Source of the DNA: Bryum argenteum
Taxonomy: Eukaryota > Streptophyta > Bryopsida > Bryales > Bryaceae
Direction: 5' to 3'
Length of the DNA stretch: 64,000 bases
Assembly: GCA_037043015.1 (NCBI GenBank)
Contig: CM073321.1
Span: 30,606,101-30,670,100, forward strand
Under the pieces are notes generated by a model. It saw only the letters and a program-made list of their open reading frames with translations, had not been told where the DNA came from and searched no databases. This document shows, piece by piece, positions 18,613-55,262 of the stretch. The translations under genes were made by a program, and so were the position numbers. The first letter of the stretch is position 1. Each line of letters opens with the position of its first letter.

Positions 18613-19170
18613 GGACGTTGCTACCGTGTGAGCGTTAAGCGGTGAGCGGTGAGCGGTGATTGATAAGATTTCTAAATTTTTAGGGCTGACTTTGTATATT
18701 TAGTAAAAAAGTTTCTAAAAACAGTTTAATATGTTTATTAGGGAATAACTCTCGAATATTCTCAAGAGTATTCAAATGTTTAAGACTTGTTACCGTGGAT
18801 TTAGTGACCCAAACCCGTGGAAATAAGGTTCAAATTCCCTGAATTTGGTTGGACTTGAGCTACAAAACTCAACAGTTAATCACAATTTGTAAATGTCAAG
18901 AGATATCTAAGGTAATATTTCTAAGTGATTAGTACTCCAAGTGAGACAAATTGGCAAGGTTTGCTGTACATGTAGGTACTGGTATAATTATATTTAATAA
19001 GTTGTGAAATAAATATCACATACACCCAATCATAGGACTTACATATGGCGTATGTAAATGAGGAGATATAAGGCATTCTAATCTGTAGCATGGTCTAGGA
19101 TTCCTCCCTCCAGAATCTTCTTCACCTCGTTGAAACTAAGAGTGGCCGCGTGGATGAAGAGGTCAGCATC

Positions 19171-21097
19171 TTAATCAAATTTGCAAACCAATACCGTGAT
19201 GAAGTATAGGTGCTTGCACGGTCCGTATGAATCTCTCCGTCCTAACGAAGAAATTGTTTTCTTGAACACTAGGCATGAGCAATCCGGGAATTCACTAATT
19301 GAAAGTCTATAAACTGCATCCAAGTCCGACTCCAAGTCTACGATACACCCAAAACCAGGCTGCAAGATCATAGTCACCTTCAGAATTTTGGCCTGCATTG
19401 AGGTGGCAGACTCAATGTTCTTCATGTGCTTTGAAGTCATAGCTGGAATGCGTTTCATGTTCTTCGATCTTCTTGACCTAGGGAACACGTCCGGCTTCTC
19501 CGGGACTGGAATATGCGACAAGTCTCTTGGTGGGGCAGCATTATTGAAAGTGCGGTTCGTAGGAAGCTTCTCTTTTTGTCGTAGTTGAAAGCCCGCATTC
19601 TCTAACGCCTCCATTTCATCACGGGTAAGATTAGTCCCTATCTTAACATGCCATATTGAAGGAATAGGGGATCTTTCCTGGCTTAGAGAAAATGGCTCAA
19701 TCCACTTGCGACGATGACCCTTCACACACCTGTCAATATCATCCGCACAAAAAAAGAACTGATCCGTATTTCTTGAGGGCGCTGCCATACTCTGATATAA
19801 GTTGGAGCTGCAGTGGCCTTCCCCTTCTGAATAATTTGTGAGTCACATCTATTTTTACTCTTTTGCATGATACCCCAACAAGCCTTGGCAGAATTCTCCC
19901 TTAAACGGGCAATGTGCCACAGCCTCTCATCTACTTTAGTCTCCTGAACAGCGGTCACACGTTCAATACTAGGTGCAGCAAATGTGGATGGTAATGTCGG
20001 TGGCTCCTCAACTTCATCCTCTTCATGGATAGTACTCAGATTTTCAGCACAGATTCGGGTAACCCTTCTCCCAATTCGGGGACGTGAGTAGCTCACGGTG
20101 TCGGATTTGTACATTTCATCATCAGATCCAATTAGAACATCAGACTTTTGTTTCTTGGATCCGAACACCTCGGCCCCCTTAAGGTGGGCGTCGCGGGTAC
20201 AAATCTTTACAGCTCATGGATAGTCAAAAACTGCCTTCATGAGGCCTGATGGATCGCTGGTTCGTTGAGTTTTATGGGCAACACGAACTAATAGTTCTTC
20301 GGATGTGGTCCATTACCACCCTTACCACCTCCGTTGAAGCCGTGATAACCCACAACTTGGAGGAAATCACGAACATAATCATCAACAGCTGCAACGTACA
20401 AGTCTCCACCCTTGTTGCCAGACACTTGCAACCATATGTTATGAATAAGTTCTACAAAGTTGCATGAAGGCATCTCCGCCAGCTCTTCTGCAGAATATTT
20501 ATTTTCCTGCAACGTGCAAAGACATTTGACTTAGTAACAAAAGGAGCTGATCACAATATCAAGAGCGGGTTAGACTCGCGGCACCGCAAGTCTGATCTCA
20601 AAATAGATGTTTTAAAAAAAAACTTTAAAGAATTGATAATGTAAAAGTTCAGAAAAGCATAATATTTTCTAATTGGAAAGTAAATATATTTAACTGGTTT
20701 ACTAGACATTTATGCACGTGTACACAATTGCTACAGTGACTGTCGGCTCACCAATTCCATGATGCCACCCCACTGCCTATATCAGAAATGCCAGAATGCA
20801 AGCTAGTGTTCCAGGTGACCTAATCCAACTTCGGAGGTGGCCTGCGCCAACGCCCACCACGATCGGATCGCCCAATATCTTGTCTCCACCTCAACCACGG
20901 TGCGTGCATCTTTGTATTGCTCACAAAGATGTCGATGTCATCCTGCAGCCCCTGCACGATGTATTGTTTGATGTGTTTCCCAAAGAATTGCGTCCAATGG
21001 AAGTAGAAAGTTCGCTTGCGGCCTTCCATGGGCTCTTTAGGGTCTCCGGAGCCGTAAATGATCCGCACAGCGTTCTAGTTGGCTTGCGCACTATCGC
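19171..21097 (-). pseudogene. MULE transposase (MURA-type), C-terminal part with SWIM finger
   Basis: This continues the transposase whose N-terminal part is at 34,363-36,077; the hAT separates them. From 21,097 the frame carries the end of the DDE region: GFM/GDSAQAN, a stop at 21,075-21,077, AVRIIYGSGD and FHWTQFFGKH. After a frame change come ETRYWAIRSWW and the LAFWHF region with stops at 20,803-20,805 and 20,782-20,784. A donor lies at 20,751. The next exon starts at 20,506 (ENKYSAEELAEM, VDDYVRDFLQVVGY) and continues to GSKKQKSDVLIGSDDE and, after a frameshift in the A-run near 19,750, to FCADDIDRCVKGHRRKW. The C-terminus has CSCLVF ... YGPCKHLYFI, the CxC...CxH pattern of a SWIM zinc finger, as in MuDR-type transposases. 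The gene is broken. Confidence 0.7.
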
Positions 21098-21105
21098 CCA
21101 TGAAC
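21098..21105. repeat. hAT target-site duplication CCATGAAC, left copy
   Basis: An eight-base direct repeat identical to 34,355-34,362. Eight bases is the diagnostic duplication length of the hAT superfamily. Confidence 0.95.
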
Positions 21106-21294
21106 CAGGGTTGTCTTATTAGACACACTTTTCGGAATGTCTGTCTAATTTGTCGTATTGGACATGTCTGTTAGATGTTCGATCGACAAAAATGTCGACC
21201 GTACCAAAAATTACATAGTAAAAAACTTGTTGAGATTTACCTTGAGGTAAAAAGCTATTCTCCTACGTGGCGTAGGGTTGAAAATGACGTGGAA

Positions 21295-21615
21295 AATCAA
21301 AATACACGTCACAGTGGGCGACCGCGGGTAGGCGACCTCGCTAGGCGACCGACGGTCGCACATGGGCGAACGTCGGTCGCCTGCTGTGATCACCGATTCC
21401 CTGGCTGCCGCGCGTAGGCGACCGGCGGTCCAGTATGGAGACCGGCGGTCGCCCTGGCAACCTCTACAAGGCGACCGCCGGTCCAGTAGTGAGCGACCGA
21501 CGATCGCCCAGGGCGATCGTCGGTCGCTTATAGCGATCGGCGGTCGCATTAGGGGTAGCGCCCATGTGGCGATCGCTGGTTGCCTTGGGCCACCGCGTGT
21601 GTGGTGACCAGCACT
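21295..21615. repeat. GACCGNCGGTC array, left terminal block
   Basis: Repeated near-palindromes GACCGNCGGTC/GCGATCGTCGGTCGC spaced 20-35 bp apart, about 190 bp inside the hAT left end. The same motif fills five other blocks in the element. Likely binding sites for an element-encoded protein (inference). Confidence 0.8.
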
Positions 21616-21947
21616 ATGGTTGAATACGAAACAAGAAAGATAAATTTATATTGGTACAAAATGAGCTTCAATGCATGTTTATGAATACCTTTTTATCGGA
21701 AACAAGATCAATGGTGCATTTCATAGTACAAATTTGTCCATGTCTATAATCATAGTATTCATACATATGATGTAACTATTACATATACCAAACTATATAT
21801 ATATATTATACTCCGAAACATACCAGAATACCAAAAAATTGTAAGCTAATACTTGCCCTACTTGCAGTACATTGTAGTATTGTACTGAGTACTAACAATG
21901 AACTTCGTGCTTCCAATCCAAAATAACAAAATTCTAATAACCCGTCT

Positions 21948-22481
21948 TTAGGTATCCTTCAATGTATACGTATCGTCGCTTGATACTTCATCTGCGTTTG
22001 GATCGGTCTCACCTAGAGAGTCATCAGTGCTTTGGTCGCCATCCTCGTCTTCATCCTCTGTCTTATTGCGTACTTCACACTCAACCTCACTCGCCAAATT
22101 GCGCAATTCCGTGTCCGTAGTTGTTTTCTTGTTCACTGTATCGAGGCGCTTCAAGGGCCGTGAAGCATTAGTGATCCCGTTTGCGTTCAGTGGTAGATGG
22201 CGCATTGTACGTGTATTCGGATTATTGGATGAAGCAATTCCAGCATGGACTTCTTCATGTACGCGTGCTCCTTTCCGACATCGTCGGTCGTGTGCCTTCC
22301 TCAAATGCTTCTGGCCTTGTGTAATACGATTGCGAGGTTGTGTAGATGGCCCGACGTCTCGTGCCACTGCCAATGCCTGGGTGCATGTTGGACTTGTTGG
22401 TTCTATCTTGACCTCCATCTTCGGCAATACCATACGAGTTGTATGGGCCCTTTTAGGTTGGGTAACCCTTGGGAACAACAA
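21948..22481 (-). CDS. Low-complexity ORF downstream of the hAT transposase
   Basis: A 177-residue open frame on the transposase strand, Pro/Thr/Asp-rich, ending NADEVSSDDTYTLKDT. It overlaps the region just after the transposase frame (ends 22,530) and may be the true C-terminal tail reached by a frame change or small intron. No domain is recognised. Confidence 0.3.
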   Translation of the reverse strand: MLFPRVTQPKRAHTTRMVLPKMEVKIEPTSPTCTQALAVARDVGPSTQPRNRITQGQKHLRKAHDRRCRKGARVHEEVHAGIASSNNPNTRTMRHLPLNANGITNASRPLKRLDTVNKKTTTDTELRNLASEVECEVRNKTEDEDEDGDQSTDDSLGETDPNADEVSSDDTYTLKDT

Positions 22482-22529
22482 TTGTAGAGGTACATCGGAG
22501 TCATCTCCGTTAAGAGTTGAATTCCTTGA

Positions 22530-25262
22530 TCAAATGGTTGAAACTCTAGGTGACCCCACTTCCATGCAACCTGAATCGTATACATCGTCAGGTTCCACTT
22601 TAATTTGGTCCATTTGAACTCTTGCCGTGGTAACCGTGCACTTCACACTCTCAAGTTTATTGTCGTTGTTAGAGTGTGGGCTGCCTTTAAGTGCACCAAT
22701 GTTCTCTTCATCCATCCGGTTTACCAAGTCTTGTTTCGCTAGGAAGGTACTCTCTTGGAGTTGTAAATTTGCCACTCCTCCTTCTGTGTCATTGGCGAAT
22801 ACCGCAAACTGGCGAGGCAGTTGTGGAACATCCTGGTCGTCATCGAACTCAAACGGGTCCTTGACATGAATAGTCATGTTTCCTTTGTTGTCGTTCCAAT
22901 TCTCTAGGTCGTCGTGTTCGCTACCGTCATTGAGATAATTGTCGTCATCCGCCTCCGGATTATCCATGAATACACCATCATCCCATTCATTGTCCGGTAC
23001 ATAGTCTTCTTTGTAAGAGTCCTCTTCTTCTAAATAATTTTCGTACCACGTTCTCGGCGATTTGGTACGTTTCTGGCGCTCGAGTTTGGCGTTCGCATAG
23101 ATGTACACAAGGTCCTCTGCTTTGGAAGTTGACAACCGATTCCTCATTTTGTTGTGCACGAAAGAGTACATGCTCCAATTCCTCTCACATGATGAAGCTG
23201 AACATGTCAATGCCAAAATCCTCTTTGCAATTTTTGGCAAGGCATTCCCCCCGACTTAATGCCACCATTGATGTGGTAACAAGTCACACTGAGCTGGATC
23301 AGGGGCCTCTGAATTGGTGTTAAATGGACCCGTCCTCTCCTCATATTGTATGAGTTCCCGCACCACTTCCTCATAGACTACTCCCATTGGGGCGCTAAGC
23401 TTCCTTATGACCCGGTTTAAAGCTCTTTTTGCTTCTCCATTGTTTTGAATTGCTCCCATATTTGTCAAATAAGGGTTCAACAAAGCTGCTGCATAGTGGA
23501 GATCTGTGAGCATCATTTCCCATCGTTTTTGAAATGGATCCTCGTATTTTGTAGCAATGTCGGGGGATAGTTCGAATGGAGGTTCACGCAAAGAGAACAC
23601 GTGTTCTTCAAGGTCCGACATGATCACATACGCCCTAGGCATGGCTGGTACTTCCCCGTCAAACTCCCGAAGAGCTATGAGTACTGGTTCAACTACTTTC
23701 ACAAACTTCGTACAATTCTCCCAAAACTCATCGCTCCTAATGCTATTCCGCACATTCCTTGCCTTTGTCTGTAACTGGTGACTGTTTTGCCTGTTGAACA
23801 ATGTTTGGACAAACACATGCCACTCCGCATCGATCACCATGTTGTTCAGAGGTTGTTGTAGCTTTAACAACCGCTCTATCATCAAGTAGTTTGTTGCAAA
23901 TCGAGTCTGAGGTGGTACCTTGAGCTGCAGCTTCGGCGAGTACTTCCTGAATAGAGCAAGTGGGACGTGCGACCCTTTAATAAATGTGTACACTCTCTTG
24001 GTTTGCTCCACCAAATGCTTAACCCGTGCCTCTTTCCCCCAATCTTCTAGAAGGAGGTCTAGAATATGTGCCGCACAACCTTGTCCATATAAGTGAGGAT
24101 AGTCTATCTGCAACTTCTTCACAGCACCTAACATGGAGCTTGCATTGTCTTTGCATGTCTGAACGATGTTTTGTGGTCCAACCTCCTCTATGTACTTCGC
24201 CATTTCATTTGCCACATAAGCGATGTCCTCTTTCTTTTTTGTAGTATCCACTGATCCCCGAAACACCTCTCCCATTGGGCAAATGAGCATCATGTTAATG
24301 AGTGGTCTACTTGTGATAACTGACCACCCATCTGAGCATATTGTTCCTCCGTGCTTCTCGATAGAAAGTTTTGTTTGATCTTCAACTGACCTTTGCACAG
24401 CTGCCTTCTTCGCATCGAGCATCGTAGTCCTAATAGCATGATACAAGGGTGGTTGATATCCAACAATACCGGCCTTTGCTGTCTCTTGAACGGCACTTAT
24501 GAATGCTGGATGTCGTACGGCATTGAATGCAATGTTTGCCTTATAGAAAAATAGAGCCCACTTTGCATCCAAATTTTGCCTAGTGGCAAGATCAAAACTA
24601 TCCTCCATACTCATTTGCCCATGTCGCCATCCACTAGAGAGTGTAGAGATCCTTTGTCCATTGCTGCCATGACTCCTCTTGTTAGAAGATGGCACCTGAT
24701 TAGACCTTAGGTTAGGGGATGGCACTTGTACAGACTTGCTGCGAGGGGAATCTATGTTCTCTATAGTTTCCCTTGCCACATATGGTATGCCGGCATCCAC
24801 TCGTGAGTCAGGAACAACATCCGCATAAGGAATGTTGTTATTTGAAACCATCCGTCCGCAGTCACGGAATAGCTCCAGAACTCCACGGGGTAACCTCGTA
24901 CACCGGGGTAATGGGGAATTCTGAGGATATCCGAAATAAGCATATGCTCGTTGCTTAACAAAGACTGTGCTTTTCCCACAGAATAAGCACACGCGAGTAT
25001 TTGGCTTGTCGTTCCGTTCCGTGGATACTTGTAGCCAATCGTCCCATTTGCGAGTGTCTCTTCTATTATCTGCTCCATGTTCCGGAATCGCACCTCCGCC
25101 GGCGTAATGAAACTGGTGACGATAATGCGCACTACAAGGGCTCAAGTTACTCATTGCACATATAGACCGAGCAGGGGGCTTCTCATGGGGAGACCCAAGA
25201 CAACGGGCAAAGCACAGAGGAAAGTGGCTTCGAGCCCGTGAACGACTCCTTATATTCTCCAT
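22530..25262 (-). pseudogene. hAT transposase (DUF659 plus C-terminal dimerisation domain), one in-frame stop
   Basis: A frame of about 910 residues starting near 25,262 (or at an internal Met, MSNLSPC). The N-terminal part holds CLFCGK, which resembles the start of a BED finger, but the following His is not at the expected place (YAYFGY). The middle has the DUF659 region: CSDGWSVITSRPLINMML, CKDNASSMLGA, YGQGCAAHILDLLLEDWGK and TRFATNYLMIERLL. After one in-frame TAA (23,256-23,258) the frame continues with the hAT dimerisation signature LTCSASSCERNWSMYS and NKMRNRL, then an acidic, low-complexity tail to 22,530. The reaction is cut-and-paste transposition in the nucleus. The single stop separates the catalytic body from the dimerisation motif, so this copy is inactive unless read through or supplied in trans. 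Confidence 0.85.
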
Positions 25263-25289
25263 ATTTCTGTAAGTCGGGGGCGAATGCGC

Positions 25290-25500
25290 ATAGAAGGGGA
25301 CCGGCGATTCGGCTAGGTCGCCACAGCCAAATCGGCGGTCGCCCTAACAACAACGCTGTCGTGCCATATGAACCGGCGGTCGCCCTGGCCTTGACTTCGT
25401 CGCGCTAGCTGGACCGCCGGTCGCCCTAGCCCTGACCCAGTTGGACCGCCGGTCGCCCTAGCCCTGATCCAGTTGGACCGCCGGTCGCCCTAACGATGGC
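25290..25500. promoter_or_regulatory. GACCGNCGGTC array upstream of the transposase start
   Basis: Regular repeats of GGACCGCCGGTCGCCCTA with a period of roughly 33 bp begin within 30-250 bp upstream of the transposase start. Their position suggests a promoter or operator role as well as the terminal binding role. Confidence 0.6.
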
Positions 25501-26226
25501 AAATTTTTGCGACGAAGAGCACTTTACTCCCCAACCACAAATTTGTAGGGGGCCATAGTCAATATCCATGGTCCACGTAGTACAGCTATTATTAACTAGA
25601 ATCCCGGAGACCATGCGGCTCAAAAATGTTTGATTCGCAATTATGTTTTTTTTTTTTTTAAATAAAAAAATAAAAATAAAGGGAACATGGGAAGGCAAGA
25701 GAGAGAACAATAAGGAATCATATTAGAAAATAGAGTTTTAACTTCTCTTGCTCCAAATCCCAAAAATAAAGGGATGAATATTGCTCAATCCACGTTTCTT
25801 AAATAATTAAGAATGGTAAAAATTGCCATATATCAATGAAGGTACCTTGGACATTGAAGGTTTTTCCCTTATGCTTATACCAAATGCAATAGTGAGATTT
25901 CATTCACCAAGAATATTTAAATTGAAGAAAATCAAAAACTTCATATTCACATTCAACGTTTTTGCATACAAAATGGCAATTGCACTTAGTGTTTGATATT
26001 GAGTACACTACTTTTCTACAACTGCTAGAAAAACGTGATTAACATACTACCAGTCATTCTTCGCTTGGGCCCCCTTCATTGTAAAGTTGGCTTGGCCCCC
26101 CTTCTGTACAAACTTGGCTTGGCCCCCCTTCATCCAAATGTCCTTCATCTTCCTCCATCGTTTGGTTCGGCTCCCCTTCATCCACTTCTCGCCTTTCGGT
26201 CCCTTCTTCTTCCGAATCTGACCAAA

Positions 26227-26778
26227 CTATGTCCTCATCAGGGATTCCTCCTTTGTAACCCCTAGGCGTTGTAAGACCTTCTCGTGGGTTGGCCGCTGGA
26301 TAAGGAGCTCGCGGAATATGGGTTCTGTTGGCTTAATTGTTTCAGGGGATTTTTTTAACGTCCTCCAATCCACCTCCCTCTGCAAAATTATCTCCGCGTA
26401 CACCATTTGTGCTATGTTGTACGAAACCTCGTTGCTCACCACATGCACACCGGCGTAGAGGAACTTCCACACTACAATGCATCGTTGCACAAATTCATCG
26501 TGATTGCAATAGTGCAAATTTGCGCAATTCAGGCGGCGATGAAACTCGTGACGATAGTGTGGAAACAAATGGCCGATGTGGCACCAAGCAATGTACCACT
26601 TGCAAGTCTTAAGAATCCACGGTCCCTCTACTTGCGCCCACCCCGGAAAAGCATGTTGCGTGGGATCTATGAGAACCTTGTGAAATCTCCTTTGCTTCTT
26701 TCCTTTCCTCTTGCGGTCCTTGTCTCTCGCTATCTTTCGCTCCTGGCTAGGCGTCATCGTCACCCAAATGCTAACCAA
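26227..26778 (-). CDS. hAT accessory ORF, short paralogue
   Basis: A 183-residue ORF starting MVSIWVTMTPSQERK, basic at the N-terminus (DKDRKRKGKKQRR), then AFPGWAQVEGPW, YIAWCHIGHLFPHYRHEFH, NLHYCNHDEFVQRC and EVSYNIAQMVYAEIIL. It is clearly homologous to the first ~170 residues of the 29,975-31,555 ORF on the same strand. Conserved Cys/His pairs (WCH, HYC) could bind metal. No known family is recognised. It lacks the long C-terminal half of its paralogue, so it is probably a truncated copy. Confidence 0.6.
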   Translation of the reverse strand: MVSIWVTMTPSQERKIARDKDRKRKGKKQRRFHKVLIDPTQHAFPGWAQVEGPWILKTCKWYIAWCHIGHLFPHYRHEFHRRLNCANLHYCNHDEFVQRCIVVWKFLYAGVHVVSNEVSYNIAQMVYAEIILQREVDWRTLKKSPETIKPTEPIFRELLIQRPTHEKVLQRLGVTKEESLMRT

Positions 26779-27029
26779 GGAAGAAAATTTTTAAAATAAC
26801 TCAAAACAAAGTTATATCTATTCCGTGGACTAACACAGAATTTGAAAAACTCGAAAATCGGGCAGCACGTATGTGTAAAATGTACACGTGTGGCACGTGT
26901 GTGCCAATTACCGCACGCTCTAGCGCTCGAACAAGCAGGCGGCAACCAGAGGTCAACACCAGACAATGTGCAAGGCCCGACACGTGGATGTGAAAAATGG
27001 CGACTGCCGGTGTCCGCGCGCGTATTTGT

Positions 27030-27320
27030 AACTCTGGTGCTAGGGCGACCGCCGATCCACCCGATGGGCGAACGTCGGTCGGTGGGGCGACCGCCGATCC
27101 AGCGGTTGGGCGACCGCCGATCCACCTGGTGGGCGACCTTCGGTCAGAGGGCGCGACTTCCAAATGGGAGGGCGCGACGTATGTCTGGGGGCGCGACCTC
27201 TGGATCTCGCGACCGTCGATGCAGCGGACGGGCGAACGTCGGTCGCTGGGGCGACCGCTGATCCAGCTGGTGGGCCAACGTAGGTCAGTGGGCGACCGCC
27301 GGTCCAGCTCATGGGCAAGG
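27030..27320. promoter_or_regulatory. GACCGNCGGTC array upstream of the short paralogue
   Basis: Repeats of GGGCGACCGCCGATCCA and GGGCGAACGTCGGTCGC every ~30 bp, lying 250-540 bp upstream of the minus-strand ORF that starts at 26,778. Confidence 0.6.
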
Positions 27321-27419
27321 ACTAACCTTCCTCCCAGCATATTTGTCAAAATTATCAAAGCAGTAACAAATTTATATAATAGCTTTTGGTGGCAAGTATT
27401 TGGAACCATCAAAACTATA

Positions 27420-28975
27420 TTAAAAAAAAAGAGATAAAATAGATAAATGGGGCAATAATGTGATTTTAATACTTGGACTTCTTAATAATGACCCTATGAA
27501 AATGATCGAATCATAAAAAAAACCATAGAAAGATCGCATCCATATGTCATAATTTAGGTGCACCCACCACAACTTCGAATGATAAGGGAAAAGAGAATAA
27601 AAGGGTAGAGGAGGTGATACGAACACTTGAATTAGGTAATAAGGGCCTCATGAATGTAATGGAAGTATTCATAAAACCATAGGAGAATGCGAACTATGTG
27701 GTTGAATTTATATGGGGATATTTGAATTGCGGGGTTTGAAGCACGAGGGCATATGTAAAAATATAAGCAAATAGGGAGTGGAAGGGGTGTTGATAACTTT
27801 CCTAGGTGATTCGTATAGTGTAAAAACTATGGTATAAATCTTAGGGCCACGGGAGGAACGAAAGTATTTTTCCCGAATTTCTGAAAATTAAATAGTCATG
27901 TGAAAGTAGGCGGTGTGCGCACATGCATACGAAAACAAAGTGGGGAATGTAATTTGAACATTTGGACTACACTAAATAGGTACATTAGTGTTAGATTTTT
28001 ATAAGATTTGAAAATGCTACAAGTTTTTACTTTTGGTATAGAAAATTTACCAAGAGTATTGATTCCAATACTATGTAAGGATCCCCATCTTCACCATTGT
28101 AGAGGGTACAAAGATTGACTAATAGTAAAAACTTATAGCCTATTTATGTAAATTAGTGTATCTAATATTGATCTACCTATTTAGTGTAGGTAATATGGAT
28201 CATATAAAAATGATGGAACCATCAAAAATATTATAGGACAACCTGTACTATTTTTTCCCAAATTAATCTATAATTTTCGAAGTAAGTAGAGGTTTAAATA
28301 ATAGATAAAAAATAGTTAAATGGAGAGAAAAAATATTTTAAAAAGAATTGGACTATTTAATAACTACCTTATGAACATGATGGAGCTATAAAAAAAAATC
28401 GTTGGAGTAAAGGATCTATAGGGTGGATTTTGGTTGCAAGCACTTAGAAACACCAAAACTTCAAAAAATAAGAAAAAATAGATAAAGGGGTAAGGGGACA
28501 ATTTAAACCCTTAGACTACCTAATGATGACCCTATGGAAATGATGGTGTTATTTAGAAAATCGTGGGGATATCTCATCTATAGGTCATCATTTACTTGTA
28601 AGTCATTTGAATGAGTAGAATATTGAATGATATACGGAAAACTTTGTGTTGAAGGGATAACGATTTTAAAACTTGTGTTGACTAAAAAAGACCTTATAAT
28701 AAAAATTATGGAAGAATAAAATTTCCCGCAAGAGAAACGTATCTACATGTTATGATTTACTTTGACTTTGTAGGATGCTGAGTAATAGAGGAAGTTATAC
28801 TAAAGGGGGGAGGAGGTGGTTTTATTATTTTCTCTAACCGTATTAAATATATTGAATCATGAAAGAAGCCACATGGAACTTGGATTTACATGGAAGGAAA
28901 TACTTGGTGTTAATTTGATTCAACGCTGGCATGGTATAAGATACTTGGTGTTAACTTGATTCAAAACCTCCAGAT
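27420..28975. other. AT-rich spacer in the hAT, with a MITE
   Basis: No coding sequence was recognised. Loosely repeated blocks (ATAATGACCCTATGAAAATGAT around 27,483, 28,363 and 28,523, followed by AAAAAATCGT) show old internal duplication. A MITE copy lies at 27,970-28,186. Confidence 0.5.
27970..28186. mobile_element. MITE, copy 2 (TIR CACTAAATAGGTA)
   Basis: A 217-bp relative of the 12,396-12,619 element, flanked by TA on both sides (27,968-27,969 and 28,187-28,188). Its interior aligns throughout with the first copy (ATTGATTCCAATAC, GGATCCCCATCTTC). It entered the hAT after that element was formed. Confidence 0.65.
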
Positions 28976-29262
28976 CGCGCGACCGCCAATACAGCGGATG
29001 GGCGAACGTCGGTCGCTAGGGCGACCGCCGATCCAATCGATGGGCGAACGACGCTGATAGGGCGACCGGCGGTCTACGTGATGGGCAAGGACCCAAGGAG
29101 AAAGTGTCCGCGAGCCTCCGCGCACCCCCTCTTGATGGGGCGACCGCCGATCTAGCCGATGGGCGAACGTCGGTCGCTTGGGCGAACGTCGGTCGCTAGG
29201 GCGACCGCCGATCCAGCCGATGGGCGAACGACGCTGACAGGGCGACCGGCGGTCTACGTGAT
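28975..29262. repeat. GACCGNCGGTC array, internal block
   Basis: Repeats of GCGACCGCCGATCCA and GGGCGAACGTCGGTCGC, with a duplicated ~100-bp stretch containing GGGCGAACGACGCTGA. It lies about 700 bp beyond the 3' end of the 29,975-31,555 ORF. Confidence 0.7.
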
Positions 29263-29974
29263 GCGCGCGAATATCTGCTTCCCCCCCTTTTGCTACAAAT
29301 CTTTTTCTGCATATTTGAAATCATGTACGATTATACTGAATCATTACCTTTAGATGTTTTGGGGGGTTTGTCAAAATATTCATCGACTCTAAATACTTGC
29401 AACTAATTCCCACCATATATTGATACGTAACTTTAACAACTTAGTTATGATTCCAAATTTTTACAAATTATTTATCATTACTTCATCGTGAATTAATGCT
29501 AATCAAAGCTTTCCAAAATTCAATATCATTATATATACATATGGAATGGTATAGACGACATAATTTTCTAAAATACCATTGTCCAAAGTATCCACCAACC
29601 TACCAACATACAAACCTACCAACTTAAATAATTACCAACCTACATACCATTCTAAGAACCTTTCTTTACATATTTCCAAATCATGCATTTAAAATAAAAA
29701 ATAAAAAAAGAAAAAGAATAAACAAGATGATTAAAATAACACCGTGCGCATATATACAAATAATAAACATAACATCGTTCAACTAGTATCTTACTAGTAA
29801 AAACATATCATATAATCAAAAAGATACATTGTATAACATATAGCCTAGCACTTATCTCCCAACTTTCAGTTCACAAATAAAATAAAGTAAATGGATATAA
29901 CCAACACACGAACGTCTTTCTAAAATTTGATTCTGCTTACTCTAATCTTCTTCCATTGTACTTTCGATATTTTA
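29263..29974. other. AT-rich spacer, no gene seen
   Basis: Low-complexity AT-rich sequence between a palindrome array and the 3' end of the 526-aa ORF. Nothing coding was recognised. Confidence 0.5.
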
Positions 29975-36667: not shown

Positions 36668-36668
36668 A

Positions 36669-44103: not shown

Positions 44104-47100
44104 ACAGCCCTTCAGGTGATTATGTTGGTCAGCTCTACTTAACCTACGGTACCGAAGGTGTGCCCTGTGTGGGTTGATTGGATTTAATTTTTCCAACTTG
44201 TTTGTGGTTCCCGTCGTGCTCGTGGAATTGCAGCAGGCACAACCCAGTATTCACAGCCTCTCCTCCAGAAGGGAGGGTCTCGGCATCTCCAAGGGGGCCC
44301 TCGAGGTGATCGTGTTGGTCTGTTGTGTTGAACTTGCGATACCGGAGGTCTCCCTGTGTGGGTTGATAGGATTTATTTTTCCCCAACTTGTTTGTGGTCC
44401 GCGTAGTGCTCGTGGAATTTGAGTACGCAGGATCCGGCCTTCATAGTCGGCCCTCCAGAAGGGAGGGTCTCAGCGTTTGCATACGGGCCCTCCAGGTGAT
44501 CGTGTTGGTCAGCTGTGCTTAACGTGCGGTACCAAAGGTCTCCCTCTGTGGGTTGATTGGATAAATTTTTTCCCAACTTGTTTGTGGTCCCCGTCGTGCT
44601 CGTGGAATTCCAGCAGCCACGATCTGACATTCACAGCCGGCCCTCCAGAAGGGAGGGTCTCCGCATCTCCAAGAAGGCCCTCGAGGTCATCGAGTTGGTC
44701 TACTGTGCTTAACCCGCGCTGCCGAACTTCTCCCTGTGTGGGTTAATTAGATTTTATTTTTTCCCAACTTTTTTGTGGTCCCCGTCGAGCTCGTGGAATT
44801 TCAGCAGGCAGAATACAACATTCACAGCCTCCCTTCAAGAAAGGAGGGTCTCGGCATCTCCAAGCGGGCCCTCGAGGTGATCGTGGTTGTCTCCTGTATT
44901 GAACTTGGGGTACCGAAGGTCTGCTCTCTACGAGTTGATTGCTTTTTCTTTTCCCAACTTGTTTGTGGTCCGCGTCGTGCTCGTGGAATTTCAGCAGGCA
45001 CGATCTGGCATTCACAGCCTACCCTCCTGAAGGGTGGGTCTCGGCATCCCCAAGAGGGCCCTTGAGGTGATCATGTTGGTCAGCAGTGCTTAACCTGCGG
45101 TACCGAAGGTCTGCCCTGTGTGGGTTGATTGGATTTACTTTTTCCAACTTGTTTGTGGTCTCCGTCGTGCTCGTGGAATTTCAAGAGACAGGATCTGACA
45201 TTCACAACCGGCCCTCCAGAAGTGATGGTCTCGGCATCCCCATGAGGGCCCTTGAGGTCATCATCTTGGTCTACTCTGCTTATCCAACGGTACTTATGGT
45301 CCGCCCTATGAGGGTTGATTGCTTTCTTTTTTCCCAACTTGTCTGTAGTCCCCGTCGTGCTCGTAGAATTTCACCAGGCACGATCCGGCATTCACAGCAG
45401 GCCGTCCAGAAAGGAGGGTCTGAGCATCCCCAAGACGGCCCTCATGGTGATTATGTTGGTCTGCTGTGTTGAACATGTGGTACCAAAGGTCTGCCCTCTG
45501 TAGGTTGATTGCTTTTTTTTTCCCAACTTGTTTGTGGTCCGCGTCGTGCTCGTGGAATTTCAGCAGGCAGGATCCGGCATTCAGAGCCTGCCCTCCTGAA
45601 GGGTGGGTCTCGGCATCCCCAAGAGGGCCCTTGATGTGATCATGTTGGTCTGCTGTACTCAACTTGCGGTACTGAAGGTCTACCCTGTGTTGGTTGATTG
45701 GATTTACTTTTTCCAACTTATTTGTGGTCTCCATCGTGCTCGTGGAATTTCAGCCGGCAGGATCTGACATTCACAGCCGGCCCTCTAGAAGTGATGGTCT
45801 CAGCATCCCCAAGAGGGCCCTTGAGGTGATCATGTTGGTTAGTTGTGCTTAACTTGCAGTACCGAAGGTGTGCCCTGTGTAGGTTGATTGGATTTAATTT
45901 TTCCAACTTGTTTGTGGTTCCCGTCGTGCTCGTGGAATTTCAGCAGGCACAACCCAGCATTCACAGCCTCCCCTCCAGAAGGGAGGGTCTCAGCATCTCC
46001 AAGGGGGCCCTCAAGGTGATCGTGTTGGTCTGCTGTATTGAACGTGCGGTACCGAAGGTCTGCCGTCTGTGGGTTGATTGCTGTTTTTTTCCCAACCTGT
46101 TTGTGGTCCGCGTTGTGCTCGTTGAATTTCAGCACGCAGAATCCGGCATTCCCAGCGTGCCCTCCAGAAGGGAGGGTCTCGGCATCTCCAAGAGGGCCCT
46201 CGAGAAGATCATGTTGGTTTTCTGTACTTAACCTGCGGTACCGAAGGTCTGCTAGTTGTGGGTTGAATGGAATTATTTTTCCCAACTTGTTTGTGGTCCC
46301 CGTTGTGCTCGTGGAATTTCGGCAGGCAAGATCCGACATTCATAGCCGGCCCTCCTGAAGGGTGGGTCTCGGCATCTCCAAGAGGGCACTTGAGGTGATC
46401 ATGTTTGTCCGCTGTGCTTAACCTGCGGTACCGAAGGTGTGCCTTGTGAGGACTGATTAGATTTTTTTTTTGTAACTTGTTTGTGGTCCTCGTCGTGCTC
46501 GTGGAATTTCAGCAGGCAGAATCCGGCATTCACAGCCTGCGCTCCAGAAGGGAGGGTCTTGGCATCTCGATGAGAGCCCTCGAGGTGATCATGTTTGTGT
46601 GTTGTGTTTAACCTGCGGTACCGAAGGTCTGCCCTGTGTGGGTTCATTGGATTTATTTTTTCCAACTTGTTTGAGGTTCCCGTCCTGCTCCTGGAAGATG
46701 AGCTGGCAGGATCCAGCATTCACAGCCTCCCCTCCAGGAGGGAGGGTCTCGGCATCTCCAAGAGGGCCCTCGAGGTAATCATCTTGGTCTGTTGTACTTA
46801 TCCAACGGTACTTATGGTCTGCCCTTTGAGGGTTGATTGCTTTCTTTTTTCCCAACTTGTTTGTAGTCCCAGTCGTGCTCGTGGAATTTCAGCAGGCAGG
46901 ATCCGGCATTCACAGCCGGCCCTTCATAAGGGAGGGTCTCGGCATCCCGAAGAGGGCCCTTAAGGTGATCATGTTGGTCAGCTGTGCTTAACCTACGGTA
47001 CCAAAGGTCTACCCTGTGTTGGTTGATTGGATATATTTTTTCCAACTTGTTTGTGGTCCCCGTCGTGCTCGTGGAATTTTAGCAGGCAGAATCTGGCAAT

Positions 47101-48110
47101 CACAGCCTGCCCTCCTGAAGGGAGGGTCTCGGCATCTCCACGAGGGCCCTCGAGGTGATCATGTTTGTGTGCTGTGCTTAACCTGCGGTACGGAAGGTCT
47201 GCCAGTTGTGGGTTGATTGGATTTATTTTTTCCAACTTATTTGTGGTCCCCGTTGTGCTCTTGGAATTTCAGCAGGCAGGATTCGACATTCAGAGCTGGC
47301 CCTCCAGAAGTGAGGGTCTCGGCATCTCGAAGAGGGCCCTTCAGGTGATCATGTTGGTCAGTTGTGCTTAACGTGTGGTACCGAAAGTCTGCGAGCTGTC
47401 GATTGATTGGATTTATTTTTTCCCAACTTGTTTGTGGTCCACGTCATGCTCGTGGAATTTTAGCAGGCAGGATCCGGCCTTCACTGCCTGCCCTCCAGAA
47501 GGGAGGGTCTCGGCATCTCCAAGAGGGCCCTTGAGGTGATCATGTTGGTCTCGTGTGCTTATCCAACGGTACTTATGGTCCGCCCTTTGTGGGTTGATTG
47601 TTTTTTCTTTTCCCAACTTGTTTGTAGTCCCCGTTGCGCTCGTGGAATTTCAGGAGGCAGGATCCGGCATTCATTGCCGGCCGTCTAGAAGTGAGGGTCT
47701 CGACATCTCCAAGAGGGCCCTCGAGGTGATCGTGTTGGCTGCTGTGTTGAACTTGCGGTGCCGAAGGTCTCCGTGTGTGGGTTGATGGGATTTATTTTTT
47801 CCAACTTGTTTGTGATCCCCGTCGTGCTCGTCGAATTTCATCAGGCAGGATGTGGCAATCACAGCCTGTTCTCTTGAAGGGAGGCTCTCGGCATCTCCAA
47901 GAGGGCCCTCAAGGTTATTATGTTGGTCTGGTGTGCTTAACCTTCGGTGCGAAGGTCTGCCCTGTTTAAATTGATTGCTTTTTTTTTTCACCAACTTGTT
48001 TGTGGTCCCCGTCGTGCTCGTGGAATTTGAGCAGGCATGATCTGTCATTCACAGCCTGCACTCCTGAAGGGAGGGACTCGGCATCTCTCTATAGGGCCCT
48101 TAGTGGAGTT
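44104..48110. repeat. ~189-bp satellite, array B (about 21 copies)
   Basis: Same monomer as array A. CAACTTGTTTGTGGTC-like markers recur every ~189 bp (for example about 44,196, 44,385, 44,574, 44,955, 45,523, 46,848 and 47,993). Monomers alternate between two spacer forms (TTGATTGCTTTTTT and TTGATTGGATTTATTTTTT), hinting at subfamilies. 189 is divisible by 3, so long spurious frames run through several copies on the minus strand. Confidence 0.9.
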
Positions 48111-48432: not shown

Positions 48433-51400
48433 GATCCATTGAAAGTTAATGTTGTCCCTGAGGAAGAGGAATCTGATGCCGATAGCGACTTATCGGCTTT
48501 GACAAATCATGTCATGGCTGTAGTAGAGTCCCGACGTTTGGTTGTAGCATTGTCCTCGATTCCGGAAACTCCGCCTCCTGCCCCTCCTGTCCGTTACACT
48601 TCAAGTGTATTCGTTCATCGGCTTGCACGAGCGGTGAACATGCGAATTAAAAAGAATGAGGCCAAAGCTAGACGTATCGAAGCGATAGCATTAGTTAGAG
48701 TTGCACCCAGACGTTCTCCGCGACTTGCAGCGAAGTTGAACTCCATATATTTCAATGACAACATTACTTGATACTTATAGCATTTTTCTACATTGTGAAC
48801 GGCTTTATATTTGAATTAATATTTTATTACCTATTTGATTTATCTCAGTGGCAAATACTTCTACGTATATGAAGGTAACCACCGTTTGACTGCGTGGATG
48901 CGTCACATTGAGAGGTACCACCAGATAGATCCATCATGGTACATCTCAGTTGATTGCATCGTACTCGATGCTCGCGGAGAAAGCAATCTCCTTCTTGACG
49001 CCATGAATGACATAAACTGGTAAGTACTTGAAACATTTTTTTGATTAATTTCAATTCAATTCTTTGTAACCTCGACGTATTCTCATCTCTGTTTCTGCTA
49101 CATAGGTTTCTACCGAACATGACTATGTCGAAGATAGTTTATGTGCGAAGCTGCAACGCATGAGGAAGTTTGGGAAGTTGAAACTTGAAGATTTCAAGGA
49201 TCTCATTACTCCGGAGGATTACCAAATTTGCATAAACGCTAAAGCAAAAAAAGATACATGGTATCATGTCACAGTGGACGTCTTCGTCAAGTTCTTATAT
49301 GCGGTAAGACTTCTTAATACGTACTAAACACTCCCATCTTGTACTCATTTCATTACAATTTCTTACTAATACTTCTGCGCCATGTAGAGGAGGTTAGCGA
49401 AAGCGTCGGATAATGCCGAAGCTACTTACTACGCCACTACCCCTAAAGAAAAGCAAACGGGGCCAGGAGTTTGGAGTGCCATGGATAACGCTATCAAAGC
49501 AAAAATCAAATCTATTTGTGGCAAATAGTTCGACAAGATGGTTGTTGTGCCCAATAACCAACTTGGCAAAGTATTCCCGAAAGAGGTTAATATTTTTGTC
49601 TACTTAGTTTCTAAGGAGACTCAATACTGTTATTGATTAATACTGAAAATAACTACTTCGATTTGTTCTATGTGCAGATCTATTCTCACTACAGCCAAAA
49701 CCTGAAGCCCCATATGGCAATCGAACGGTTGCACATGGTTGCCACCACCAATGTCCATTTTGATTTTAAGGGAAAGTCTCTGCAATGGTGGATTGCGCCA
49801 AATGATGTTCGTCAATCTGTCCACTTCCCATTAGAGCGCCCTATGAAGGATAAAACGTTGCTAGCATTTCTGCATCGCGCTTCTCTCTGGGCTCATGTAT
49901 ATCATACTGAACTTTTGTCATTACTGTATTCTCGTCATCGACTATCTACTTCGTCCTAACGTGGTCTATTTGATTGCAGTTACAACAATCCCTCGAAAGT
50001 GAAATACCACAACTTCTGGAGGATGGCAAAATCCACATTCAGTGGTCGGATGCGGTACTAACGCCATCCGCGTACGTTGAGAAATGGAGATTGCTTTAAT
50101 GGGAAAAGGCCTTCGGCAACAACCTCGCTCAAAATGCCTGCCCAAAGTTCATAAAAGGATCCGATATTCAGAAGATTAGAGGTGGCAAGGTTACTATTAA
50201 ACGGCTCTTATTCCGGTACGTATTCACTTAGCTTTTCATTTTCCTACTGTATATGCGGAGTACCAAAATCAATACTTGTCGCAACCCTTGCTAGCTCACC
50301 TTAGCTTACACCAACTTTTTCCCAACTCTAGCAAGTGTCACGAGCGCTAACTCTGCACATCCCCCACATGCACAAAGTTAGCTCTCCATACCAACCACCA
50401 AGCTCACCGCTTGGTTATCAATCCCTCCTACTCATGCAACCGGGACTCAACTCCTTCGTAGGTAGCCAATGGTTAGGTGCGGACTTCCACTTATGTCCAA
50501 GGCCCAACTTGGTGGCACTCCCATACCACGCGGCCTAACCGCACTTGGTGGTGTCTCCTCACCACCGCCCATGACCACCATGGTGACCCCAAGGCCACCA
50601 AGTAATCACAACGCCGGCGGTGAGACACCACCCCACATCGGTAGCACTCATGGTCCTCATTTTGCCTATATGAGTCCCCGTGGTGAAGCCCCAACACTAG
50701 CTCCCCCACCGGGACTCACCTTGTCCTTATGAGCCACCGTGGTGAAGCCCCAACACTAGCTCCACCCACCGTGCCTCATTTTGCACTTTGAGTCCCCATG
50801 GTGGAGCCCCAACACTAGCTCCACCCATTGGGACTCACCTTGGCTTGGGAGTCCCCATGGTGAGGCCCCAACACTAGCCACACCACTGGGACTCCCACCT
50901 TGGTCACCACCAAGGCACCATGGGAGTGGGGAGGAGACCAGCCCTCCCCATAGTATACTCTGTGGGATTCGGCAGCCCCTGGTCCTAGGTGAAGGGCTGG
51001 ACCCTCACACCTCTTAGTTTTGGAAGACCACCCAATCTCCCAATGCCTTAGCCGCTGGAAGGCCCCGGGAGACTTCCCGAACCTTCCAGGGCTCGTATCT
51101 ACCTCGTCCCGCATCCAAACGCGACGAGCGACCACTCTATCGACATCTACTCGTCAAGTAGATGCCGATAGACACCTTACTTGCCTCATTCCGACAAGTA
51201 TTGAGGGAGTTATGCCCCTCTGAAGATTCGGGAGTCCCGGGCCAGCTTCCCAGTCCAGCACTGTCCCTGGACAGCACTCACTTTAGTCCCACAATCTTCC
51301 AACTCCCATAACTTTTAGCTCACACCTCCAACTGAGGTGCTCCTTAGCATCCCGGAATCGTGGCAACATGAGCTTCCATAATCTCATGTCCATTCCCTCG

Positions 51401-53797
51401 TGGCTCCTAGTCTCCGTGGGTGAGAGGCGTCTCCAACGCCCGGGGTCCTCTCCCACACTAGGCCCACTTAGGTTCCCTTCACCTTGGCACCCCAAGGCCC
51501 GGGCGTCACTCCGGTGTCCCCCTTGGGCCCTTGGTGTTGCGGGCACTCCTCAAGGAGAGGTGCGCGACAATACTGTATACTAAATTCTGTCATTGTAATA
51601 TGTTTTCTTGACTCTAGGTACTTGAAACAAGAGTTTCTTAGCAAAGGAGCCTTGGCTTCATGGTCCATTCCGGCTGAGCTCGAGGACTTAACCGTCTCAA
51701 ATGATCCATCTAGCGTCTTTTCCGAAGCCCAACAGAGACGATTCTCCAATTACCAGTTGTTGACCGGTGGTTGGTTCCTTGAGTGCAACGATAACTTTGT
51801 GTACAAGGAAGAAAGACATCTGCTTTGGAACCTCAGTTCAAACGCACCAGCCCATGCACCTATGGAGATCCATGACGATGAGGACGAAGACGTCTCCATT
51901 TTACCAACCGCACCTGTCTCACCCTCCGAACCTCCTTCACCGGTTGCACAGCCCAGAACCAGAGCAAATAGAAAGCGACGCAACGGTGCTGCGAGGCCTT
52001 TAGTTGATCTTGAACAAGAACCCGATGAAATCGCTCCGCTCCATCAAGACATTGCAGGTCCAGAAGAAGCTGATTTGACTCACGCTTCACATGGAGCGAC
52101 CAACAATGCAGGTAGACGCGGTCGACAATTGATTCAGATTTCTGCAGGCGCTCTTACGAATGCGGGGTCCCCTCCTCAATCTTTCACAGTCGCCCACAAC
52201 TCCGGAAAGAAGTTCGCTTCACTCCCATTTCTTGAACTGAAGCATGTTGGAGAGAGCTTGTCTTCTGAGATTACTATTCCTCTCCCAATGTACTTGAAAA
52301 AGGGGATATCGGAGCTTCTGTTCAAAAGGCAGCTCATGAAACAAAAGACTGAGACACGCAAGTCATGGACATCATCAACCACATCAGAAAGGTATTATGT
52401 CTTAAATCTTTTATTACATTCTTTTCTTTCTTAAATTTTGATTTGAACACATTGCTTACAACCTGTCTAACTTTTGTGATTTCCAAAGATTGGCAAGGAC
52501 AGGAAGTACCCATGTAAGGAGATGGGCACGAAACACCCGCAACCCGGCATTGATCTCATCTACGCAGACGTTCCCGAGAACTTACGCGTGCCTGACGTCT
52601 CGCCCGTTAAAATCCCTTCATGGAACTAGCGAGAGAAGAGTTACTTCGAGAGTGTGTACTTTTTTGCTTTCTACAACTTTACAGAGGAGGGTGCGATACT
52701 TGTAATGCATTGCAAGGACCGTCAAGTTGAGAAAGCTCTGGATGCCGAGTCAAAGGCTTTCGAATTCCGAATAGTGCGAGATTGGTAAGGATATAATCCC
52801 ATGTTAATGGCCTCGACGAAACCCCACATGAAAACGGTATGGTCTTCATTCTGCATTCAAATCATCATTCATGATTATTTACAACGTTTTTCTAAATCTC
52901 TCTCATGTATTGAATTTTGCAGACTTACAACTTCCACATTAAGATATTTGTTCGGAAGTCTTTTGCCACCAGATTCTCTATAAGACAGGTTGCGAAAGAG
53001 TACGCAGGTGTGCCCATTCTTCCCAACGAGGAGGACCATGTTTTCAATTTTGCGAGCAATGCCTCCATTCGTAAGAAGAAAGATCATGGTACTCCGTGGC
53101 GTGGCTCGCGAGAGTAGAATCCCTCCTTCCTCCAATGTTTTATTGATTCTCTCACAAACGAGCGGGGAATCGTCTTTGACTGGAGCCCTAGTACATGTTA
53201 GTTGTTGCTAATACCATTCTCATTCAAATTATTCAATATTGTAGTTTTGATGTTGGTTGCTTGTATGTAGGTGCTTCCGTGATTGCCTGCGCGCGATCGA
53301 ACCGTCATCTCATTGCTGTTGAAGCTGATGCAGAGATATTTGACGGGCTTTTATCGGCATACGTGGATGGTACCGCTTTTGAGGAAGAAAGCGGCGATTC
53401 GGTTCCAGTTTATGACTACGACAGTGACACTTCTGAACCGCTTCAGAAGAAGCAACGCCCAACATTTTGTGCGTACTTATCTCTTACTTTCCCCTCTTCT
53501 ATTTTAACATTCACTTGCTAATAATTTATTGGTATTGACTTTTTCTGTACTTTTAGAATTGCAGGTTCAAATCGACGCTTGATTGGCGACGGAAGTCTCT
53601 ACACCAGTCCTCCGCAAAGTTTCTCTGTACCATCTTATGCGAAGAGGATAGCTCAGGATTTTGTGGCTGCCCCTTCTCCCGTCTTATCGGACAGTAGTAG
53701 ACGTCGACGCTTTAGCTCAAGAGTGCTTGTGTTTATAGACGATGAGGCTGATCAGTGTGACCAATACTTTAATGGTCGTTCACCATCAGCATCCTAG
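48433..53797 (+). pseudogene. ParB-like / DNA-methyltransferase-like multi-exon gene of the MULE
   Basis: Exons, approximately: 48,433-48,770 (DPLKVNVVPEEEE, SPRLAAKL), 48,848-49,019, 49,106-49,303, 49,388-49,585, 49,678-49,896, 49,980-50,215, 51,618-52,391, 52,489-52,785, 52,923-53,200, 53,272-53,468 and 53,565-53,797. GT-AG borders are good and most phases agree. KYFYVYEGNHRLTAWMRHI matches the ParB/sulfiredoxin-type GNHR/GxHR motif. Further on, GIDLIYADVPENL lies where a DPPY-type catalytic motif would be, followed by YFFAFYNFTEEGAILVMHC, and the C-terminal IVFDWSPST / RSNRHLIAVEADAEIF resembles an AdoMet-binding motif I. That order (catalytic motif, then motif I) is that of beta-class DNA amino-methyltransferases. 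The canonical D/N/S-PP-Y/F is not visible, so activity is doubtful. Stops at 49,526, 50,097, 52,627 and 53,115, and frameshifts near 49,020 and 52,360, mark this copy as a pseudogene. The solo LTR lies in the intron after 50,215. Confidence 0.55.
50277..51569 (+). mobile_element. Solo LTR, 1,293 bp, with 5-bp duplication ATACT
   Basis: Starts TGTCGCAACCC and ends GTGCGCGACA, with the terminal inverted repeat TGTCGC/GCGACA typical of LTRs (TG...CA). It is flanked by ATACT at 50,272-50,276 and 51,570-51,574, a perfect 5-bp target duplication. No internal retroviral-type sequence is present, so it is the product of LTR-LTR recombination. It lies in an intron of the methylase-like gene, whose phase is preserved across it. 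It contains tandem ~50-60-bp repeats with GCCCCAACACTAGCTCC (50,690-50,880). Confidence 0.95.
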
Positions 53798-55262
53798 GTG
53801 TTTTTATTTTTGAGGTTTGGTTTGGACTACATAGGGTCATATAGTTGCCCTACGACATTGGTCATACATGTGGTTTTATTATACGTTTTTATATCTATAT
53901 ATGATGTTTACCTTCTAATCATGAACGTTTAATGCATTCTTAATTAATATCTAAATGTTTAATTTATAAACTCAATGCAAACTAAAAGTTTTAATACGTT
54001 TCTTTATTTTGAATTGGAGTGATTGAATCTAGCTAATGTTGGTAGAGGCTCTTGTTCAATATTTGTATAGCTCAGGATAGTTGCTTTACGACGCACTGCA
54101 ATGCTCAAACGAGGCCGAGGAGAATCGAACTCGGACCACCACAATGCCACGAGAATGTCTTTCTGTACACCTTACAAGGGGACACGGAGAGACGACTTGT
54201 AGTTATAAACTTCAGATTATATAAATCGTAGCATTTACATGTAATTCTGATAAGTCTAATAGGAAATTGATGACATCAGCCCTAATTATACTCTAAATTT
54301 TAAAATAATTAAAGTAAATTTATTGATGTCCCAATGGATCCTCCGAGATTTTGGTTAAAGTTTTGTATTTGTAAGTGAACGCGGCCAGTATATGATTTAA
54401 ATTGCATGGGTTACACATGATGATGTCAGCCCTAATTTAATTAACTTTTATTTAACCCCTTAAGATCCTTGGGTGTTTTTGGGAGCTTAAAACCTCAAAA
54501 CTCCAATTCTCTACCTCTATGCACTTCAAGGGGTGCGAAACAATTTTTTTATTCTTTTCTTAACTTCCAACCGTAAGATCTTGTACCTAAGCCAATTTTC
54601 AGTATCTGATATAAAAATTGACCGTTGGATGTTTACCATTTGAGAGATTATAACATCCAAAGTTTGTCTACGAAGTTTTTTTGGGCATTGTTGAGATTAT
54701 TTTTAACACTTTTGGAGGCTGCCCTTGTAAAATTGGTACACTTTTTGACTTGGGGCCCTTTGGAACTTAAGTAGCGATTTGGTCATGAACATATTTCCAA
54801 AAAAAAATCTCAAAAAAATACTAAATTTAAACTGCCCCAGTTCGGCTCGCAAACCAAGAATTGTTGTAGAAGACTCAAAAATTGGAATTTGGCTTTGTAA
54901 ATTTTACCACATACACTTTGCAGTATAGGGAGCACCCATTAAAAAATTTAGGCAAAAATATTACTTTTAACCTATTAATCTAAGCTGCCCAAAATAGCAA
55001 AAGCCTAATTTGGTCCTCTTGGATCTTTAGGGGTTAAACTTGCAAATGTGGATTATTTATGAAATAGTGTATGACCTCAATACCTTGAAAAGAAATGGAT
55101 AAAGGACCTATATCCACGGTTTTTGGTCCTTTTATGCCTAAAAATAACCATTTCAAAATTTCTGCACCACCCATTCCATGTTAATAGGGCCATTAACTTT
55201 TCAAAATTTTATTTCTTACCGCTCAAACTTTACCGCTCACCGCTCACACTGGTGGTTTACCC
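53798..55262. other. Right subterminal region of the MULE
   Basis: AT-rich, no gene seen. It ends with GAGCGGT-type repeats on the minus strand (55,215-55,245) and the terminal GTGTGAGCG block. Confidence 0.5.

Follow-up and report, generated by a model that had tools for sequence, protein, structure and literature searches.

Boundaries and termini of the element

We describe a transposable element of 36.65 kb in the moss Bryum argenteum that carries two divergent genes, one for a transposase and one for a protein with ParB-like and DNA-methylase-like parts. The element occupies positions 18613 to 55262 of a 64,000-nucleotide stretch of assembly GCA_037043015.1 (contig CM073321.1, here C1:30606101-30670100), which we call the window; positions without a contig name are those of the window. 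Its ends and genes are laid out as follows.

18603..18612, no strand: left copy of the target-site duplication, ATTGAGGTTA
18613..18665, + strand: left terminus, a 13-bp tip GGACGTTGCTACC followed by GTGTGAGCG and GAGCGGT repeats
19174..21105, - strand: C-terminal exons of the transposase and 3' part of its main catalytic exon, cut by a hAT insert
34355..37401, - strand: remainder of the main transposase exon and 5' region, interrupted by an insert at 35604-36693
48835..53791, + strand: second gene, ParB-like and DNA-methylase-like, about 10 exons (exon 1 remnant at 48835-49017, methylase exons at 52489-53462, last exon at 53558-53791)
55218..55262, - strand: right terminus, a tip followed by GTGTGAGCG and GAGCGGT repeats in the orientation opposite to that of the left end
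55263..55272, no strand: right copy of the target-site duplication, ATTGAGGTTA

A preliminary description made from the letters alone had claimed a 10-bp direct repeat, inward ends starting with GG, GTGTGAGCG at the same offset and subterminal GAGCGGT repeats, and all of these are present at both ends. ATTGAGGTTA is unique to its two flanking positions within the window, GG forms the first bases of each inward end, and GTGTGAGCG lies at offset 14 in both. GAGCGGT is found at 18644 and 18651 on the + strand and at 55239, 55232 and 55218 on the - strand, with three more copies scattered inside the element. The terminal inverted repeats of the window copy are short and degenerate: the tips diverge over about 13 bp and are followed by the common stretch from GTGTGAGCG to GAGCGGT. 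Apart from a few changes, other copies have GGACGTTGCTACCGTGTGAGCG as their left end, and the right ends of several other copies, reversed, read GGGGAAACCACCGGTGTGAGCG. The similarity between the two ends extends beyond the tip in less eroded copies, indicating an imperfect short terminal repeat.

Searches were made in the element's own genome (258.8 Mb, 25 contigs). The resulting counts are lower bounds, with the best candidates scored, and one gene may yield more than one row. An empty-site query of 500 bases, in which 250 bp from each flank were joined with one copy of the duplication, matched 40 of 40 scored paralogous sites (149 candidates) at 89-96%. Every match spans the junction, which falls exactly at 18612/55263, where the preliminary description had placed it. 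These sites are paralogous repeats, not alleles, and the element in the window is inserted into an older repeat.

The ends recur in other copies, of which 40 left ends (586 candidates) and 40 right ends (379 candidates) were scored. The left-end query overlaps the transposase open reading frame (ORF) by 27 bases; the right-end query (55036-55262) is non-coding and was kept clear of a 578-bp high-copy insert that swamped the matches obtained with 54600-55262. Duplications of 10 bp flank five end pairs, exactly in the window copy and in the pairs at C4:16416861 and C1:35943676, and at 9 of 10 positions in a copy that we call E1 and in the pair at C1:23010385. The duplications of the four pairs outside the window are ATGTTTGGCA and ATAGAGAAGC (each 10/10), CACGAGGAAA/CACTAGGAAA and CTCTTAAGCT/ATCTTAAGCT (each 9/10). 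E2, the sixth copy in which both ends were found, is truncated on the right and has no readable duplication.

E1 (C1:35844291-35856946, 12,656 bp) lacks the inserts of the window copy. The 36.65-kb interval holds four nested inserts as well as 11 kb that E1 does not match, as might be expected if a chance repeat merely surrounded unrelated transposons. That reading is virtually untenable: E1 has identical ends, the same order and the same genes within 12.66 kb, and the empty sites, which span the exact junction, refute it.

Linkage of both genes with the ends

The preliminary description had placed a methylase-like gene divergent from the transposase gene and had regarded it as an element gene by inference. 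The gene is there, on the + strand against the - strand of the transposase, and between the same ends the two genes recur together with constant order and orientation. We scored 85 of 1532 transposase candidates, 142 of 1206 candidates for exon 1 of the second gene and 150 of 960 for its methylase exon. Exon 1 lies divergently within 40 kb of 39 of the 85 scored transposase matches (controls: 1 with the order reversed, 2 with the orientation inverted) and the methylase exon of 43 (controls 0 and 1); one or the other is near 51 of the 85.

The ends behave in the same manner. Of the 40 left ends, 12 have a scored transposase match less than 40 kb away, at a distance of 1.0-1.6 kb (1 and 0 in the controls). 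In the same range 14 have a methylase exon (3 and 0 in the controls, a contrast weaker than any other) and 6 a right end. A methylase exon precedes 20 of the 40 right ends and is 0.8-2.2 kb from them (none in either control). The remaining 28 left ends lack a scored transposase in the 40-kb range, a figure to be read against the 85 of 1532 transposase candidates that were scored. Among the loci fetched, which were the best 20 of the 40 scored per end and included the window and E1, the transposase C-terminus is encoded at 20 of 20 left-end loci and the C-terminal exons of the second gene at 16 of 20 right-end loci, with one cross-hit each way. At the other four right-end loci no second-gene exon was seen in the 1.5 kb examined. 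Both genes belong to a large, many-copy element family.

The transposase and its classification

The preliminary description had named the element Mutator-like and its enzyme a DDE+SWIM transposase. Target-site duplications of Mutator-like elements (MULEs) measure about 8-11 bp, or 9-11 bp by the preliminary description, and their transposases have an RNase H-like DDE domain with a CxxH motif after the second aspartate and, C-terminal of this core, a SWIM zinc finger. A transposase gene with two aspartates and CxxH is borne out by D519, D585 and C614-x2-H617, which are present in 41 of 41 transposase relatives; the third acidic residue was not identified. The SWIM part holds less firmly, with PF04434 matched at 19174-19842 below threshold in the window copy (E = 0.0048; score 16.9 bits, cut-off 19.6). 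There are 238 transposase relatives at E <= 0.001 in the public protein set. The 10-bp duplication, the D/D/CxxH pattern and the sub-threshold SWIM match fit a Mutator-like label, which we use provisionally.

Several results would also be expected if the transposase came from another DDE superfamily that makes 10-bp duplications. No Pfam MULE match was obtained with the E1 pieces scanned or the 41 relatives (PF10551 is absent among the 19 families listed), Transposase_mut (PF00872) is matched by just 2 of the 41, with a best E of 0.034, and an unusual conserved Cys/His region lies N-terminal of the catalytic part. The PDB search with the transposase profile returned nothing useful, and no NCBIfam match was found for two relatives. 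We nonetheless think it unlikely that the Mutator-like label is wrong, given the 10-bp duplication, the sub-threshold SWIM match and the invariant residues, whose D/D/CxxH pattern is a mark of MULEs.

Structure and domains of the second gene

The second gene has about 10 exons with mostly GT-AG borders, as read from E1 against the window and from a subfamily copy with open exons (L082); the splice junction leading into the last exon is uncertain. In the window copy about 700 bp of the 5' part are absent and several stops are present. Its N-terminal part has the form IPLCRL...VRPI...GYREGDRVxYVS...EGNHRxTAW. The ParB/sulfiredoxin superfamily has an active-site motif of the GxHRxxA type, with which EGNHRxTAW may be compared. 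Of 29 database relatives, 10 match a ParB-like PHROG at E <= 1, with a best value of 0.0021, and the next family is matched by 2 of 29.

The methylase part matches DNA methyltransferase PHROGs (9e-5 and 2.8e-4) and, under the curated cut-off, Pfam N6_N4_Mtase (0.0098 and 0.0078). The CcrM model (0.0074) and PRK13699 (0.0079 at best) fall far under their cut-offs, and a DpnA-like structure was matched at 0.13. A tblastn search with this domain found 126 phage records at E <= 10; the 30 records listed comprise 22 annotated methylases, 6 hypothetical proteins and 2 without annotation. Phage methylases are matched with E = 1e-3 at best, in an alignment covering 24% of the domain, and with 4e-3 in one covering 93%. 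An hhalign comparison of the methylase part gave 96.1% over 55 columns.

Motif IV precedes motif I within one domain, which is the beta-class order, and both motifs are altered. Motif IV, which reads DPPY twice, DLPF and DLPY in four aligned phage enzymes, is DVPE or DAPE in the second gene, and the catalytic form (D/N/S)PP(Y/F/W) is absent from all five copies compared (window, E1, C2, L082 and L016). The MGSG of motif I is replaced by ASTG or PSTG; most copies read have D-W/F-S-A/P-S-T-G in place of the FxGxG type that binds S-adenosylmethionine. The changes are common to compared copies of different subfamilies and thus appear to be old and maintained, not the result of recent decay. Altered motifs that are shared and constrained in this manner point to a DNA-binding pseudo-methylase.

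An active N4-cytosine or N6-adenine methylase that marks element DNA despite these changes would retain the beta-class order, and the second gene does so, together with the aspartate and last proline of motif IV, the aspartate of motif I and the lysine of the motif preceding motif I. Moreover, two of the four aligned phage methylases themselves have DLPF or DLPY instead of DPPY. Against this, the aromatic residue of DPPY is glutamate in all five copies and MGSG is lost to ASTG or PSTG, and because of these alterations we regard methylase activity as rather improbable.

A search of the protein database with the full-length second gene found no match at E <= 0.001 (6193 candidates). Exon 1 alone gave 33 relatives at this threshold in the public protein set, and for this reason we assume that gene-callers split the gene by exon. 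Ceratodon purpureus is the sole organism named among the relatives listed, with a match on a 110.5-Mb contig; we read its locus tag as belonging to the V chromosome. A more diverged relative of exon 1 (39% identity, one stop) lies near another left end, at L019:918-1388, and suggests deeper subfamilies. Upstream of the second gene is one further feature.

48445..48747, + strand: small conserved ORF, present in 11 of 13 sequences, with a PRRSPRLAAK-like end

It has no Pfam match and is a candidate for a third element gene or a leader ORF.

Selection and integrity of copies

Ratios of non-synonymous to synonymous substitution rates (dN/dS) were obtained by the Nei-Gojobori method and are given as medians of pairs that are not independent; dS is saturated between subfamilies, and the set includes copies with stops, whose stop codons were skipped. 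For the second gene dN/dS is 0.33 in exon 1 (34 pairs), 0.27 in exon 7 (4), 0.17 in exon 8 (97) and 0.31 in exon 10 (170), and for three transposase pieces it is 0.66 (105 pairs), 0.35 (186) and 0.30 (1). The most divergent pairs listed have values of 0.03-0.12 in exons 1 and 8 and in one exon-7 subfamily pair, where dS is saturated, and of 0.21-0.27 in exon 10. By these values constraint on the second gene seems no weaker than on the transposase pieces that were measured. Constraint is weaker in the small upstream ORF (median dN 0.243, dS 0.411). No stop was found in 7 of the first 10 exon-1 matches listed or in any of the first 10 methylase-exon matches listed.

Plant transposons, MULEs among them, are well documented to take up genes (see PMC13317346), and the second gene could in principle be a passenger, a host gene taken up by some copies as in Pack-MULEs. 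We reject this reading as very improbable on the grounds of recurrence and selection: the gene adjoins those 16 of 20 fetched right ends, many copies have open frames, its subfamilies have low dN/dS, and relatives are found in other sources, Ceratodon included.

The copy in the window is itself broken and probably capable of neither transposition nor the second gene's function, because a hAT element sits in the main transposase exon and the second gene lacks most of exon 1 and contains stops.

Proposed role of the second protein

We propose that the transposase would bind the GAGCGGT-rich ends and mobilize the element through a cut-and-paste mechanism. The second gene, a putative fusion of ParB-like and beta-class DNA-methylase-like domains that appears to be kept by selection, would encode a protein that binds the element's own DNA without methylating it. 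Its most likely function is that of an anti-silencing or transposition-accessory factor, in a role comparable to that of VANC in the VANDAL transposons. A nicking or accessory role is also possible, because prokaryotic ParB-methylase fusions exist and non-specific DNA nicking is reported for one such ParB part (PMC5512222). To this interpretation as a whole, a mobile element with a conserved gene pair whose second product is DNA-binding, non-methylating and most likely anti-silencing or accessory, we assign a probability of about 0.72.

Several observations weigh against it. The ParB-like PHROG is missed by 19 of the 29 relatives at E <= 1, Pfam yields nothing convincing for exon 1, the PDB yields no ParB match for it, and a tblastn search of phages with an exon-1 relative gave one unannotated match at E = 0.2, which does not support ParB. 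The methylase half aligns strongly over just those 55 columns at its end, and several domain matches are sub-threshold. The ORFs scanned, which included part of the short ones, contain neither DUF1985 nor another domain of VANC. In the 1.5 kb preceding the second gene, arrays with units of 114-118 bp occur at 4 of 8 loci, E1 included, and at none of the other four, so the parallel with VANDAL, in which repeats are targets, is partial. The proposed role is, finally, deduced from sequence.

A more specific scenario may be entertained tentatively, although we consider it doubtful. A bacterial-type ParB-methylase fusion, recruited by a moss transposon, might have lost methyl transfer and become a sequence-specific anti-silencing factor, independent of VANC, that recognizes repeats of the element and blocks host methylation. 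To our knowledge few transposon-encoded proteins act on host silencing. If true, the presence in plant MULEs of a second, unrelated anti-silencing protein, assembled from DNA-modification parts of prokaryotic type, would imply that such systems arise repeatedly. The second gene is kept in well over a hundred copies (the 142 scored for exon 1), and offers a testable possible means by which a transposon of plants could control its host or escape from it; with many copies in several subfamilies, its role is directly testable in a moss model.

Nested inserts and the intergenic region

The window aligns with E1 in seven blocks (18612-21106, 34357-35603, 36694-37401, 48446-48831, 48842-50275, 51576-54455 and 55034-55262), and nested inserts were defined as gaps between them. 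Four inserts have clean target duplications.

21106..34354, - strand: hAT element of 13,249 bp, with terminal inverted repeat CAGGGTTGTCTTATTAGACAC and 8-bp duplication CCATGAAC
35604..36693, no strand: unclassified insert of 1.09 kb, duplication AGAGA
50277..51569, no strand: solo-LTR-like (long terminal repeat) insert of 1.29 kb, with TGTCGC...GCGACA ends and duplication ATACT
54456..55033, no strand: high-copy insert of 578 bp, with CCCCTTAAGATCC ends and TTAA duplication

Together they amount to 16.2 kb and leave an element of about 20.4 kb. The preliminary description had also counted four nested insertions, without listing them, and its figure of about 18 kb could stand for either sum and is exact for neither.

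The two genes are separated by 11 kb (37402-48445) without alignment to E1, within which lie two tandem arrays.

38475..40056, + strand: first 190-bp tandem array, the only locus found in the genome search
44107..48100, + strand: second 190-bp tandem array

A genome search with two units found no 190-bp array elsewhere, and the absence of a match does not prove rarity. The arrays are an apparent local amplification between the divergent genes; E1 carries a 116-bp array in this region instead.

The hAT insert contains a kinase-like ORF (Pfam Pkinase, 6.4e-8) with 119 genome matches. A kinase-like gene lies divergently within 40 kb, in the order and orientation of the window, of 44 of 71 scored hAT-transposase matches (controls 1 and 2). 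The spacing is 12.5-14.3 kb in 22 of the 44 and 7.1 kb in the window, some rows being fragments of one gene. The nested hAT belongs to a family that carries a protein-kinase-like gene. Also inside it are two paralogous coding stretches (26341-26675 in ORF 26230-26790 and 31139-31473 in ORF 29978-31567; 73% identical at the DNA level over 337 bp), which have no Pfam match save a weak, sub-threshold Spectrin match in the second.

Other repeats and genes were noted in passing. The solo-LTR-like sequence occurs twice in the window (50791-51569 against 1-780, 99.2% identical over 781 columns). About 438 bp of the 578-bp TTAA insert are matched at 98-99% in 39 other scored places (4408 candidates), and this element has probably been active recently. 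A DUF7869 protein (3.6e-31) is encoded outside the element at 16301-17440.

Comparison with known systems

No ParB-like or methylase-like gene in a MULE was found in the titles and abstract beginnings of the open-licence PMC papers that the searches listed, with Repbase reports outside the search. The closest known systems share some features with the element. VANDAL elements of Arabidopsis (VANDAL21/Hiun, with VANA, VANB and VANC) resemble it in having degenerate ends, additional genes and tandem repeats between the genes, as described in PMC5735166 and PMC6446971; the terminal repeats of some members, by the account in PMC6446971, measure 46-174 bp. They differ in a 9-bp duplication (PMC6446971), compared with 10 bp here, and in the VANC domains DUF1985 and DUF287, which were not found in the ORFs scanned and in whose stead the second gene is ParB/methylase-like. 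Kaonashi elements, described in PMC13317346 as MULEs without terminal inverted repeats that carry Ulp1, likewise carry a conserved accessory gene that has acquired an enzyme-like domain, but that domain is a Ulp1 protease and not ParB/methylase.

Outside the plants, Bce_0392 of Bacillus cereus is a fusion of ParB and methylase (PMC5512222, in a passage that does not give the order of the two domains), and the methylase domain here can be aligned with phage enzymes, in keeping with beta-class methylases such as CcrM and DpnA. Unlike these prokaryotic proteins, the second gene is eukaryotic and multi-exon, has a long spacer between its domains and altered motifs IV and I, and is borne on a transposon. 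Fungal transposons with TET/JBP genes and the SET-carrying HarbingerS and MuDR elements, as reported in PMC12730594, are also DNA transposons with a gene for an epigenetic-type enzyme, but their enzyme families and hosts are others.

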